Source: a virus. Taken from it: 33,331 nt of DNA. Under the pieces are notes generated by a model that had not been told where the DNA came from, did no database searches, and saw nothing but the letters and a program-made list of their open reading frames with translations. Shown in pieces: positions 5,026-15,113 of the stretch. Made by a program: the position numbers and the translations under genes. The stretch covers positions 1 to 33,331 of the IMG/VR virus record IMGVR_UViG_3300042523_000108; one strand, given 5' to 3'. Every line of letters starts with the position of its first letter. Position 1 is the stretch's first letter.

Positions 5026-5402
5026 AAAATTTATACATATTATTAGCCCTTACAACCTTAGTAAGTTGCTACACAAAGAAGAAATGCGTTGAGAAATTCT
5101 GCACAACCGATACATTAGAGGTAACGCTTCACGATACTATCCGCACCGAAACAATCAGAAAAGACACGGCATTTCTTTACAAGGGCGATACAATCACTAT
5201 CATTAAGGATAGGCTGCAAATAAAGTATTACAGAGTAAACGATACTACTTACATAGAGGGTGCTTGCATTGGCGATACAATTTATATCACCAAATCGGTA
5301 AAAATCCCTACACTTCAACCCAAACCACATCCCTTTAAGTGGTATTGGTTACTATTCGCTGCACTATTTGGAGCAGTTATAGTGCTTACTATAAAAAAAT
5401 AG
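5022..5402 (+). CDS. Unimolecular spanin (u-spanin) candidate lipoprotein
   Basis: 126 residues with a lipoprotein signal: MKNLYILLALTT followed by lipobox LVSC (Cys16), so the mature N-terminus should be lipidated. The middle is a Thr/Asp-rich beta-like region (LEVTLHDTIRTETIRKDT). A single C-terminal membrane helix lies at about 104-123 (WYWLLFAALFGAVIVLTI) followed by KK. Outer-membrane lipid anchor plus inner-membrane helix in one chain is the layout of u-spanins such as T1 gp11, which fuse the two membranes in the last step of lysis. Position at the end of the endolysin-holin block supports this. The beta-rich rather than coiled middle also fits u-spanins. Confidence 0.7.
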   Translation: MKNLYILLALTTLVSCYTKKKCVEKFCTTDTLEVTLHDTIRTETIRKDTAFLYKGDTITIIKDRLQIKYYRVNDTTYIEGACIGDTIYITKSVKIPTLQPKPHPFKWYWLLFAALFGAVIVLTIKK

Positions 5403-9526: not shown

Positions 9527-9720
9527 CACCACAAGAAAAAGCAATAGAGTTAGTAGATAAATTTTATTTAATTGAGGAAAGCCAAGAATGTGATGCGTGG
9601 ATTGACGGATATTTAGCAAAAAAATGTGCATTAATTGCAGTTGATGAACTATTGGAAGAATGTAGATTAGAAAGAGATTGGTATTGGGAACAAGTTAAAA
9701 CCGAAATAGAAAAATTATGA
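9523..9720 (+). CDS. Small helical phage protein
   Basis: 65 residues: TPQEKAIELVDKFYL, KKCALIAVDELLEECR and a C-terminal YWEQVKTEIEKL. This arrangement is common next to TAVEWL proteins in Bacteroidota phages. Role unknown. Overlaps both neighbours by four bases. Confidence 0.65.
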   Translation: MTPQEKAIELVDKFYLIEESQECDAWIDGYLAKKCALIAVDELLEECRLERDWYWEQVKTEIEKL

Positions 9721-10061
9721 CACTACTAATAAGCAAACCAAACTTTTACGTCAGAGTTCACGGGGTTAACAAACACAAGATTACACTTGACGGCATCATT
9801 TGGGCAGTAACTAAAGTAAGCGGCTACTCAGAAAAGGAACTAACATCCAACAACCGCAAACGAGAGATATTGTGGTGGAGGCATTGCATAGCTTACTTAG
9901 CTTGCAAGCATACTTATTCAAGCCTACAATCAATCGGATTAAGATTAGGAGGGCGTGACCACACAACTATAATGAACGCTAGGACAAAGATTCAGAATTA
10001 TCTTGATTATAAGGATGCACTTTTTGTGGATAGGATTAAAAAAATTGAAACGCTATTATGA
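9717..10061 (+). CDS. Stand-alone DnaA domain IV-like DNA-binding protein
   Basis: 114 residues. The signature GGRDHTTIMNAR (78-89) is that of DnaA domain IV, the part that reads DnaA boxes, preceded by the expected helices (KITLDGIIWAVTKVSGYSEK, then a CIAYLACKHT helix). There is no AAA+ ATPase domain, so it could bind DNA but not drive melting by itself. The gene ends about 300 nt before an iteron-like cluster and the primase gene, so it may mark the phage origin or compete with host DnaA. Domain call is solid; role is inferred. Confidence 0.85.
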   Translation: MTLLISKPNFYVRVHGVNKHKITLDGIIWAVTKVSGYSEKELTSNNRKREILWWRHCIAYLACKHTYSSLQSIGLRLGGRDHTTIMNARTKIQNYLDYKDALFVDRIKKIETLL

Positions 10062-10342: not shown

Positions 10343-10479
10343 AAAAGTGCGGAAAGGAGAATGACACATTAGACGCATTGTCACATTTTTTGGCTAGTTC
10401 ATCTGTTATAGAAATGATAATGGCAAAAGTTTTTCCAAAAGTTTCTGAAAAGGTCAAAAATGTGTCTCATCTGGAATAG
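10339..10479 (+). CDS. 46-residue small protein
   Basis: ATG 10339 overlaps the previous stop (ATGA) and the frame runs to TAG 10477-10479: MKKCGKENDTLDALSHFL, then ASSSVIEMIMAKVFPKV and EKVKNVSHLE. Coupled start and lack of any other frame support it. The iteron-like repeats begin within it (10361), so the DNA may serve two purposes. No family. Confidence 0.5.
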   Translation: MKKCGKENDTLDALSHFLASSSVIEMIMAKVFPKVSEKVKNVSHLE

Positions 10480-10532
10480 CCCTTGCAAACATTGAGTTTT
10501 TTATATTGCAATGTGTCATTTCAATGTGTCAT
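10361..10532. repeat. Iteron-like cluster, AATGTGTCAT / ATGACACATT (candidate origin or operator)
   Basis: Two direct copies of CAATGTGTCAT lie at 10509-10519 and 10522-10532 (13-bp period). The reverse complement ATGACACATT is at 10361-10370, and near copies are TGTCACATT at 10379 and AATGTGTCTCAT at 10459-10470. Between them is AT-rich DNA (GAGTTTTTTATAT). The position just before the primase-helicase and after a DnaA-domain protein suggests a replication origin; a repressor operator is the alternative. Confidence 0.55.
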
Positions 10533-10589
10533 AACCGACATTTTTATTAAAAAGATTTGCACAATGGTATTAGTTTTAATAAATAGATG

Positions 10590-10597
10590 TAGTTTTG
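10590..10597 (+). promoter_or_regulatory. Promoter P4, -7 box only
   Basis: TAGTTTTG matches TAnnTTTG. No good TTG lies at the expected 19-nt distance, so an activator may be needed. The predicted start, about 10602-10604, coincides with the 5' edge of the structured leader RNA, which supports the assignment. Confidence 0.5.
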
Positions 10598-10602
10598 TTC
10601 TA

Positions 10603-10689
10603 TAAAATCGGGTTTCAGCGGCGGCTGTCTAAAAGGTTTGAATGACCCTTTCCCGATATTTTTTAAGTCATTCAACTAAAACATTCAAA
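10603..10689 (+). ncRNA. Structured leader RNA: three-way junction with two alternative pseudoknots
   Basis: Closing helix ATCGGG (10607-10612) with CCCGAT (10652-10657), extendable by A-T pairs. Inside, hairpin 1 is CAGC-GGCG-GCTG (10616-10627) and hairpin 2 is AAAGG (10632-10636) with CCTTT (10647-10651). The loop of hairpin 2, TTTGAATGAC (10637-10646), is complementary to two downstream sites: GTCATTCAA (10667-10675, 9 bp) and CATTCAAA (10682-10689, 8 bp), the second only two bases before the primase ATG. A T-run (10659-10664) follows the closing helix. So the same loop could either pair next to a terminator-like T-run or mask the start site. This is the design of a switch or of a small terminated RNA. 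I do not recognise it as a known riboswitch class. Confidence 0.6.
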
Positions 10690-10691
10690 GT

Positions 10692-13070
10692 ATGAGTAAA
10701 ATATTAGTATCAGTATTTAAGAGCGCACAAGATGCCTCTAACCCTTTTCATAGGGCAGTAGAAATTTGCTTGCAGCGAATTATCGAAGGAAATTCCAAAG
10801 AACTTGTAGAAAAGTTTAGATTAACCAAAGAAGATAAGTATAAGAAGCAATTGCCTGGTGTTTGTTTTAATGGAACTTTTAGCCATAGAGCCAATAAAAA
10901 TATTATAGAACCTAGCGGTTTGATGATTGTTGATTTTGATAAGTTCCCAAATATGGAAATATTAAATCAAACTAAGCAGAGATTAATAAATTTACCTTAT
11001 ATCTTTTCTGTATTCATTTCACCATCTGGTAGCGGATTAAAAGCATTGGTTAAGATTCCAAAGGATGCCGAAAACTTTAAAGGTTACTTTAATGCTTTTA
11101 TGGCTGAGATTGACAGTCCTTATTTTGATAAGTCAACTAAAGATATAAGCAGATTTTGTTACGAAAGTTATGACCCTGAACTATATTATAATCCCGATGC
11201 GATTGAATACGATACTATTGAGGTAGAAGAATACACAGAGATTGGTTCAACTTATAGTGATGTGGTAGTTCCATTAAAATCTGAATCACAAATTATTGAT
11301 AGGCTAACTACTTGGTTCAATAAAAAGTACAGTATGGCAAATGGTGAAAGGAATAGTAATCTTTTTAAGTTTGCTATGAGTTTAAATGATTTCGGCATTA
11401 GTCAAATAACTTCATCTAATCATCTGCTTAAATATGCTGAAAAAGATTTTAATGGCAATGAGATACAAGACTTGGTAAATAGTGCCTACAAGCGTGGTAA
11501 AAATACCTTTAGCACAAAGTTTTTTGAAGATAGCAACACAAAGTCACATATTCAAAAACAAATATTAAGTGGCAAAAGAGTTGAACAAATTAAGACTAAC
11601 TTAGAAAGAGCATCTAATCCACACGAAATAGAAACCATTGAGCGAGTTAAGGAATCGATGGAGGTAGATGACTTTTGGAATGTATCAGATAAGGGTAGAA
11701 TTTCATTAAGTCCTCTTAAATTTAAGAAATGGTTAGAGCAAGAAAACTTTATGAAGTATTATCCTGCGGGCGGTAATACTTATACATTCATAAAAAGACA
11801 AGGTAATTTTATTGAGGAAACAAATGAGAAACGAATAAAGGATTTTGTTTTAGAATACTTACTTGCCAATGATAAAATAGGAATTAAGCCATACGATTAC
11901 ATAGCAGGTAACCCTCAGTTCTTTACTCCAAACTATTTATCCTTTCTAAAGTCGGCAGACATTAAAATGAAAGAGGATACTCAAACAGAGTGTTTTATTT
12001 ATTATGAAAACTTAGCCTTAAAGATTACCGACAACAAAACTGAAAAGATAGACTATCTAAATTTAGATGGCTACGTTTGGAAGAATCAAATTATTAATAG
12101 AACCTATACAGACACCGACCATCACGAGGCAATATTCAGAGAGTTTATCTGGTTAATTAGCGGTAAGAATAGAGATAGATACAATACTTTTAAATCAGTT
12201 ATTGGTTATCTATTGCACACCTTTAAGACATCAGCAAATAACAAGGCTATTATTTTCAACGATGAAACAATAAGCGAGAATCCTAATGGCGGAAGCGGCA
12301 AAGGTGTGTTTTGGAATGCTATTTCTAAGATGAAAAAGGTTAGCATGATTGATGGAAAATCGTTTGAGTTTACAAAAACTTTCCCTTATCAGACAGTTAG
12401 CACAGATTGTCAAGTTCTGGTGTTTGATGACGTTAAAAAGAACTTTACTTTTGAATCATTATTTAGTTTAATTACTGAGGGAATTACCATTGAGTACAAA
12501 GGGCAGGATGCAATTAAGTTACCAATCCAAAAAAGTCCTAAAATATTAATTACTACTAACTACACGGTGGGTGGGGTAGGTGGTTCATTTGAGCGCAGAA
12601 AGTTTGAGGTTGAAATGAGCAGCTACTTTAATTCAAACAATACACCTCTAGACCATTTCGGGCATTTATTATTTGATGATTGGGTTGATGAAGAATGGGC
12701 AAGGTTTGATGCTTATATGGTTAATTGCTTGCAGTACTATTTAAAGAATGGTTTAGTTAATAATGAGTTCGGAAATCTTTTAACTAGAAAGTTTATTGTT
12801 GAAACTGCTCACGAATTTTTTGAATGGACCAAAGAAGGAAACATTAAACTAAACGAAAGGCTTTACAAGGGAACTATATTTGAAGATTTTGTTAATGAAT
12901 ATCCAGACTTCAAGAAGTTTCTAAGTCAAAAGAAATTTAAGAAGTGGTTAGAACTCTATGCAATATTTGTTGATGCAAAATATACAGAAGGTCGAGGTGT
13001 GGATGGTAGATGGTTTCAACTTTCAAAAGATATTATCGAGCCAATGTTTAAAACAGATATACCTTTTTAA
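10692..13070 (+). CDS. Primase-helicase: VirE-N/BT4734-like domain plus DUF5906-type helicase
   Basis: 792 residues. N-terminal domain (about 1-180) matches the BT4734/VirE-N family: SGLMIVDFDKF (75-85) and SPSGSGLKALV (110-120), the pattern of an archaeo-eukaryotic-type primase core. A helical middle follows. The C-terminal part (about 500-700) is a phage SF3/DUF5906-like AAA+ helicase: Walker A in NPNGGSGKGV near 530, Walker B VLVFDDV near 577, sensor KILITTNY near 620 and an arginine pair in SFERRKFEVE near 635. It should prime and unwind DNA at the phage fork. Start ATG 10692 follows the structured leader and lacks a Shine-Dalgarno. Confidence 0.85.
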   Translation: MSKILVSVFKSAQDASNPFHRAVEICLQRIIEGNSKELVEKFRLTKEDKYKKQLPGVCFNGTFSHRANKNIIEPSGLMIVDFDKFPNMEILNQTKQRLINLPYIFSVFISPSGSGLKALVKIPKDAENFKGYFNAFMAEIDSPYFDKSTKDISRFCYESYDPELYYNPDAIEYDTIEVEEYTEIGSTYSDVVVPLKSESQIIDRLTTWFNKKYSMANGERNSNLFKFAMSLNDFGISQITSSNHLLKYAEKDFNGNEIQDLVNSAYKRGKNTFSTKFFEDSNTKSHIQKQILSGKRVEQIKTNLERASNPHEIETIERVKESMEVDDFWNVSDKGRISLSPLKFKKWLEQENFMKYYPAGGNTYTFIKRQGNFIEETNEKRIKDFVLEYLLANDKIGIKPYDYIAGNPQFFTPNYLSFLKSADIKMKEDTQTECFIYYENLALKITDNKTEKIDYLNLDGYVWKNQIINRTYTDTDHHEAIFREFIWLISGKNRDRYNTFKSVIGYLLHTFKTSANNKAIIFNDETISENPNGGSGKGVFWNAISKMKKVSMIDGKSFEFTKTFPYQTVSTDCQVLVFDDVKKNFTFESLFSLITEGITIEYKGQDAIKLPIQKSPKILITTNYTVGGVGGSFERRKFEVEMSSYFNSNNTPLDHFGHLLFDDWVDEEWARFDAYMVNCLQYYLKNGLVNNEFGNLLTRKFIVETAHEFFEWTKEGNIKLNERLYKGTIFEDFVNEYPDFKKFLSQKKFKKWLELYAIFVDAKYTEGRGVDGRWFQLSKDIIEPMFKTDIPF

Positions 13071-14561: not shown

Positions 14562-15113
14562 ATGAAAAAGTCAAAAATCATAGAGGCTATCTACAAAGAC
14601 TCTGCTTACCGAAATGTATGCAGAAACATAGCCTCACCTGCTTTATTTGAAGACTTGTTTCATGAAGTTATTATTAACCTGCTAGATATGCCAGATGAGA
14701 AAATAATAGAGGCTAAAGAAAAAAAATATTTAAAGTTCTTATTCGTAAAGATTGCACACAATAGTTGGAACTCAAAGCACTCGCCATTCTACCGAAAGTA
14801 TCGGCACAATGACCAAACCGAGAGCATAGACTTATTGATTGGCTTGGAAGGTGACTTAGACCCTGAACTAGAAAATAGGGAAGATGTGTTCCAAACCTTC
14901 ACCCAAGAAGTAAAAGACAAGATTGATTCGTTAGATTGGTATGACCAAACACTTTTAAAGTTATACATTGATATAGGGGAGTTCAGGAAGATATCAGTTA
15001 TGACGGGGATAAAATATGGAGCGGTCCAATACACTATTCAAAAAACAATTAAAAAACTAAAACTTGAAAATTATGACAGATTTAAAATCTTTAGCGATTC
15101 TTACAACACTTAG
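14562..15113 (+). CDS. Sigma-70-like transcription factor
   Basis: 183 residues. Region-2-like helix near 25-45 (SPALFEDLFHEVIINLLD), a basic stretch (KYRHNDQ) and a region-4-like helix-turn-helix at about 138-172 (DQTLLKLYIDIGEFRKISVM, then TGIKYGAVQYTIQKTIKKL). This is the layout of short ECF-like sigma factors found in Bacteroidota phages. It has its own promoter and sits at the border between replication and structural genes, as expected for a late-gene activator. The late TATTTA motif described under findings could be its target. The sigma call is by pattern; it could be another HTH activator. Confidence 0.65.
   Translation: MKKSKIIEAIYKDSAYRNVCRNIASPALFEDLFHEVIINLLDMPDEKIIEAKEKKYLKFLFVKIAHNSWNSKHSPFYRKYRHNDQTESIDLLIGLEGDLDPELENREDVFQTFTQEVKDKIDSLDWYDQTLLKLYIDIGEFRKISVMTGIKYGAVQYTIQKTIKKLKLENYDRFKIFSDSYNT

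Follow-up and report, generated by a model that had tools for sequence, protein, structure and literature searches.

A structured RNA with one hypervariable loop, followed by two short sequences complementary to that loop, lies directly ahead of the replication gene in the 33,331 nucleotides of viral DNA analyzed here (the window), and we confirm that this layout of loop and site pairing is real and far beyond chance. The pattern of conservation and change among relatives indicates that the leader is probably a self-made brake on virus replication, one that could also tell related viruses apart. We lean toward a mechanism, with considerable room left for others, in which a self-targeting antisense leader would control the phage replication gene via a terminated RNA of ~60 nt that blocks translation initiation. 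The leader represents an RNA family without an Rfam entry in more than 100 uncultured Bacteroidota-type phage contigs; to our knowledge, few systems have been described in which RNA controls phage replication (P4 CI, P1/P7 c4).

Results

A sequence-only reading of the window had described a leader RNA in front of a primase, with one loop able to choose between two downstream partners. On re-reading, its coordinates for the leader proved exact to the base, the complementarity of the loop to both partners (9 bp and 8 bp) is exact in the sequence, and the gene that follows is indeed of the primase type (792 aa; PF08800, phrog_18375), with its ATG at 10692 (Table 1). The RNA, sites A and B and the target gene all lie on the plus strand. 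A repeat search recovered the pair of loop and site A independently, and within the 33-kb window GTCATTCAA occurs on the plus strand at 10667 only and its complement at 10638 only. The single-sequence fold energy of the leader is unremarkable (z = -0.54), and generic promoter and terminator scans were uninformative, the terminator scan not flagging the leader hairpin with its U-run, so the case rests on comparison with relatives.

Table 1. Positions of the leader RNA, its sites and its target gene in the window, and loci with leaders of the second class
Feature	Position or locus	Strand	Evidence
-7 promoter box TAGTTTTG	10590..10597	+	Sequence; fits Bacteroidota consensus TAnnTTTG
Three-way-junction RNA	10607..10657	+	Helices covary in 21 relatives; model R1 match
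P1	ATCGGG 10607-10612 / CCCGAT 10652-10657	+	Sequence
P2	CAGC 10616-10619 / GCTG 10624-10627	+	Sequence
P3	AAAGG 10632-10636 / CCTTT 10647-10651	+	Sequence
P3 loop TTTGAATGAC, hypervariable, proposed antisense seed	10637..10646	+	28 distinct loops in relatives
U-run directly after P1, putative intrinsic terminator; T-run at 10659-10664	10657..10664	+	T-run in all 78 leaders
Site A GTCATTCAA	10667..10675, -25 to -17 from start codon	+	9 bp with loop
Site B CATTCAAA	10682..10689, -10 to -3 from start codon	+	8 bp with loop
Primase/helicase-type replication protein, 792 aa, BT4734-like (VirE) N-terminal domain	10692..13070	+	PF08800 E 3.7e-21; phrog_18375 DNA primase/helicase E 1.9e-24
Second-class leaders before first gene	L011, L019, L025, L027-L030, L053, L225-L227, L267, L174, L178		

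A protein search for relatives yielded 80 IMG/VR loci, and about one third of their distinct leaders have the same layout with different loops. A sequence pattern built on the common form of P2 matched 77 contigs, and patterns on P3-P1-T-run and on another form of P2 matched 83 and 34, partly the same ones; all patterns combined place the leader RNA in more than 100 IMG/VR contigs. R1, a covariance model of the leader RNA, matches the window with 55.6 bits (E 1.6e-12; the window is a member of the R1 seed) and finds one strong copy per locus, weak second matches being at chance level. The relatives that carry the RNA are environmental contigs. Sequenced phages (INPHARED) gave chance 18-nt matches only, GTDB species genomes scanned with one exact pattern gave none, primase relatives in genomes yielded no R1 match that stands up, and the RNA was not seen in relatives among isolated phages. 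Rfam at gathering and relaxed thresholds returned nothing relevant for the leader RNA, and a literature search covering open-access papers and few subscription journals found no account of such an RNA in Bacteroidota phages. First genes of unrelated kinds (BT4734-like/PriCT, VapE-like, DUF3987 and DUF6291) follow this RNA. Of two weak R1 matches, the one at L240 (5251-5303, 20.3 bits) resembles a distant junction without a clear loop-site match, and this junction-like RNA (5216-5320) is flanked by a 16-nt direct repeat, GGCTTGTTTATTAATT, and stands ahead of another gene; the one at L190 (20.0 bits) has no layout of this kind.

In an alignment of 21 relatives, partly chosen and annotated with the structure in mind and thus favoring it, pairing is seen in 97.2% of helix cells and double-sided change in 9 of the 14 pairs; neither value was reached in 500 shuffles, and when the helix alignment was slid as a control only 49-67% of cells remained paired. 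The double-sided changes in P1 and P2 are independent of how the alignment was chosen. On this evidence we take the helices to be real. The sequence-only reading had staked itself on such a comparison, and in the relatives both loop-site pairings are conserved and the helices covary. The nearly invariant parts of the leader are P3 and the short junction stretches UU and NU, and the P2 loop varies freely; P2 itself is often identical (GTCGGAGGCATCCAC) across many contigs and is also present as several unrelated hairpins (GGAGGCATCC, GGTTAGCTGCC, CAGCGGCGGCTG and GTTGAGCCGATCAAC).

The match between loop and sites was tested on 17 distinct loop types and then on 28. Across the 28, the duplex energy of a loop with its own site A is -9.7 kcal/mol versus -3.2 for swapped loops, and with its own site B -6.6 versus -2.4 kcal/mol. 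None of 50,000 permutations equaled the own-site advantage, for A and for B separately; these permutations take loop types as independent, and since several share a CACTGT core the effective number is smaller, with an effect that is very large. Ranked against all other loops, a site's own loop pairs best in 22 of 28 types at site A and in 8 of 28 at site B, from which we conclude that site B is weaker and less specific than site A; L280 has no clear site B, and the site is weak in several other leaders. In 27 of 28 loop types perfect complementarity goes no further than the loop edge, and in one it extends beyond; such a restriction to the loop is expected if P3 stays folded. Position is likewise constrained: A sites begin at -20 to -26 from the start codon in 27 of 28 loop types, and B sites in relatives lie at -6 to -13 from the ATG and end 0-6 nt ahead of it. 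Bacteroidota lack a Shine-Dalgarno sequence and favor A at -3, -6 and -11 to -15 (PMC7366714), and it is this A-rich stretch, favored by their ribosomes, that sites A and B flank and overlap.

The junction had been described as beginning at the predicted transcription start, and the relatives bear this out: TAnnTTTG, the Bacteroidota -7 consensus (PMC7366714), stands ahead of all 78 distinct leaders and, in 68 of them, 4-5 nt before the first G-run, so that the RNA would begin at or next to P1. Within the 16 nt that follow P3, all 78 leaders have a T run of 4 nt or more, and in 62 of them the longest run is 6 nt or more; counting against a terminator, P1 has only 4-7 bp.

Loop types switch between genes that are otherwise nearly the same. 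First genes 94-99% identical carry different loops, with both sites changed to match, although the list of switched loci also includes loops that differ only by an added UU (e.g., L096/L143). At L079 and L092, whose proteins are 99.1% identical, the flanking promoter and coding sequence match at near 100% and the replacement is confined to ~70 nt; L084 and L114 differ mainly in loop, spacer and sites. Gene trees, which are quick trees with some open forks, give at least 8 loop-type changes in the VirE-type clade and at least 11 in the DUF3987-type clade, where loop type is hardly clustered (11 changes versus a shuffled-label mean of 12.3). The same loop types recur ahead of unrelated genes, which suggests that a short loop-site cassette has been exchanged between loci; recurrence through convergence is possible instead, and the swapping could possibly reflect neutral recombination and not selection for type. 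Nearly identical replication genes with loop and target sites swapped make for an unusually clear natural experiment.

A separate set of repeats lies in the DNA just upstream of the RNA promoter. The window has two 11-nt direct repeats, CAATGTGTCAT, at 10509 and 10522 (10509-10532), 13 bp apart, with an inverted copy at 10360 (10360-10370), ~140 nt upstream of the direct pair. A similar arrangement recurs in many leaders: some 75-110 nt ahead of the RNA come short direct repeats spaced 10-13 bp apart, and an inverted copy lies farther upstream. The sequence of these repeats follows the gene family: GTTTACAG is found in DUF3987-type loci with four different RNA loops, and TAGGTACACATT in the VirE-type loci L058 and L092. 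The upstream repeats behave as protein-binding DNA would, and the loop and sites do not; possibly they are a replication origin or an operator. Shortly upstream of the RNA, at 9717-10061, the window encodes a 114-aa protein that consists mainly of a DnaA C-terminal helix-turn-helix (PF08299, E 2.6e-18) and might bind these iteron-like repeats.

Discussion

In the mechanism that we favor, transcription would start from the TAnnTTTG promoter at the 5' edge of P1, and most transcripts would stop at P1 and the U-run, freeing an RNA of ~60 nt whose P3 loop would serve as an antisense seed. The minority that read through would be primase mRNAs with two seed-complementary sites, at about -25 to -16 and -10 to -3 from the start codon. 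The seed would pair with sites A and B, in trans from the free RNA and/or in cis from the mRNA's own loop, and this pairing would be expected to block translation initiation and so limit the replication gene. Because the RNA comes from every genome copy, and from the same promoter as the mRNA, such a brake on replication would be dosage-dependent and scale with copy number; because loop and sites switch together, it would presumably act only on phages of the same loop type, in the manner of an incompatibility or superinfection-immunity type. The specificity of the loop looks to be RNA-RNA, since it is the upstream repeats, and not the loop, that follow the gene. Of the two functional options raised in the sequence-only reading, a small terminated RNA with an antisense loop fits best. 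The proposal that the two pseudoknots are mutually exclusive holds for a single loop acting in cis, but need not hold for a free RNA acting in trans, copies of which could occupy both sites.

More tentatively, and with rather more doubt than belief, we suggest that the free RNA acts in trans on every co-infecting genome with its loop type, as a widespread RNA-typed system of incompatibility or superinfection immunity among Bacteroidota phages, in which frequency-dependent selection would drive exchange of the loop-site cassette but leave promoter, junction and replication gene in place. If trans action is true, then which phages can coexist in one cell would be predictable from their short loop sequences. 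Among the 26 window proteins scanned (Pfam and/or PHROGs), none was recognized as an integrase or repressor, and no prophage or lysogen carrying the leader RNA was found in GTDB genomes with the one exact pattern, so that classical prophage immunity is without support; the leader-bearing phages may be virulent.

Several other explanations account for part of these observations. It is possible, if on the unlikely side, that the leader is purely a cis-acting pseudoknot switch with no trans RNA, in which the loop pairs with A or B of the same mRNA, the choice of partner setting the level of primase translation or readthrough. The loop and its two sites are packed into ~55 nt of a single transcript, all of the covariation data fit this reading equally well, and the average superiority of A over B is what a default and an alternative partner would give; moreover, with its own loop on every mRNA, cis pairing could dominate and make trans action unnecessary. 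However, the U-run ahead of site A points to many transcripts that stop short of both sites, and a new loop brings no advantage to a cis-only switch, although loop types do change between genes as much as 99% identical; such rapid switching is easier to understand if the partner sits in another molecule. The terminated RNA might instead pair with the nascent readthrough transcript and cause premature termination or decay and not a block to translation, as its closest functional precedent, the P4 CI RNA, uses premature termination of the replication operon (PMC4825925); we regard this as unlikely, given where the sites lie: at the start codon, B reaching to within 0-6 nt of the ATG, as expected of a ribosome block.

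Two further readings would place the specificity outside RNA-RNA pairing. The riboswitch-like logic raised in the sequence-only reading, or a protein-binding leader, would have a metabolite or a phage or host protein select between the pseudoknots, and a structured leader with a terminator-like stem, alternative pairings and a P2 often identical over many contigs would suit it. We consider it very improbable, because no conserved ligand pocket or unpaired core is seen: near-invariance is limited to UU, NU and P3, only the two short stretches being conserved outside helices, the loop of P2 is free to vary and P2 itself comes as several unrelated hairpins. A binding pocket, moreover, needs no hypervariable loop with two matching sites, and no Rfam family matches. 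Finally, loop, site A and site B could be three DNA binding sites (iterons or operators) for a replication protein, with the RNA structure secondary, since one inverted and two direct copies beside a replication gene form a common iteron or operator layout. This we rejected as scarcely credible: near-identical proteins have different copies, one copy always falls exactly in a hairpin loop with covarying helices, and the loop does not track the gene, whereas the separate upstream set of repeats does, as protein binding predicts.

By analogy, the self-targeting leader that we favor would work like the P4 CI and P1/P7 c4 RNAs and is not a member of either family, as site placement, fold, sequence and host differ and Rfam gives no match. 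The CI RNA of phage P4 (the seqA/seqB/seqC immunity system) base-pairs with two stretches of its own leader and halts replication-gene expression (PMC4825925). Like the RNA described here, it is a small same-strand RNA in the untranslated leader of a replication operon (PMC4825925), and its antisense segment has two complementary partners on its own transcript. In P4, however, the sites flank the RNA (seqA upstream, seqC downstream), whereas here both lie downstream, at the start codon; the P4 RNA is made by processing and causes premature termination, whereas the window RNA is predicted to run from its own promoter to the U-run; and fold and sequence are unrelated. P4 immunity acts in lysogens, and none are known here. 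The loops of the P1/P7 c4 RNA are complementary to the ribosome-binding-site region, and loop differences lead to heteroimmunity between related phages (PMC12197685). The c4 RNA (RF01695) shares the predicted pairing of a loop around the ribosome binding region of its target, the sites here lying within ~26 nt of the start codon, but its target is ant (antirepressor) and not a replication gene, and both host phylum and fold are different; RF01695 had no gathering-threshold match in the window and none up to E 5 at 10500-10750.

In some plasmids, Rep is controlled by counter-transcribed RNAs such as ColE1 RNAI and R1 CopA, which combine a conserved fold with a variable loop that sets incompatibility, and act as a dosage-dependent brake on replication initiation from the strand opposite their target. 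The leader RNA resembles them in its conserved fold and hypervariable loop with matching sites, and differs in that RNA and targets share a strand and only a short loop match is involved. The loops and sites of these leaders offer natural orthogonal antisense pairs for Bacteroidota. Within that phylum, Bacteroides has no evident homologue of Hfq or ProQ that is known (PMC7366714).

At 14562-15113 the window encodes a protein of 183 aa that weakly resembles RNA polymerase sigma factors (phrog_1740, E 7.3e-7) and could have a bearing on which promoters are used.

A second class of leader precedes the replication gene in other members of these gene families (Table 1): next to the promoter is a 5' segment of 6-8 nt, and after it comes a terminator hairpin with a loop complementary to the 5' segment. 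Examples are CTCTCTGA at L027, GATCTCAC at L267 and the covarying ACGCAC/ATGCCG/ATGCAG at L225-L227; the class has no Rfam match. Over 20 such leaders, own pairing amounts to -10.9 kcal/mol versus -7.5 (0 of 20,000 permutations), a result that the four mis-parsed leaders included in it (L021, L024, L042 and L045) weaken and do not inflate. Because a second class of self-complementary, terminator-bearing leaders exists, such leaders may be a general device for the replication genes of these phages. One of them, L174, lies in a Dysgonamonadaceae MAG.
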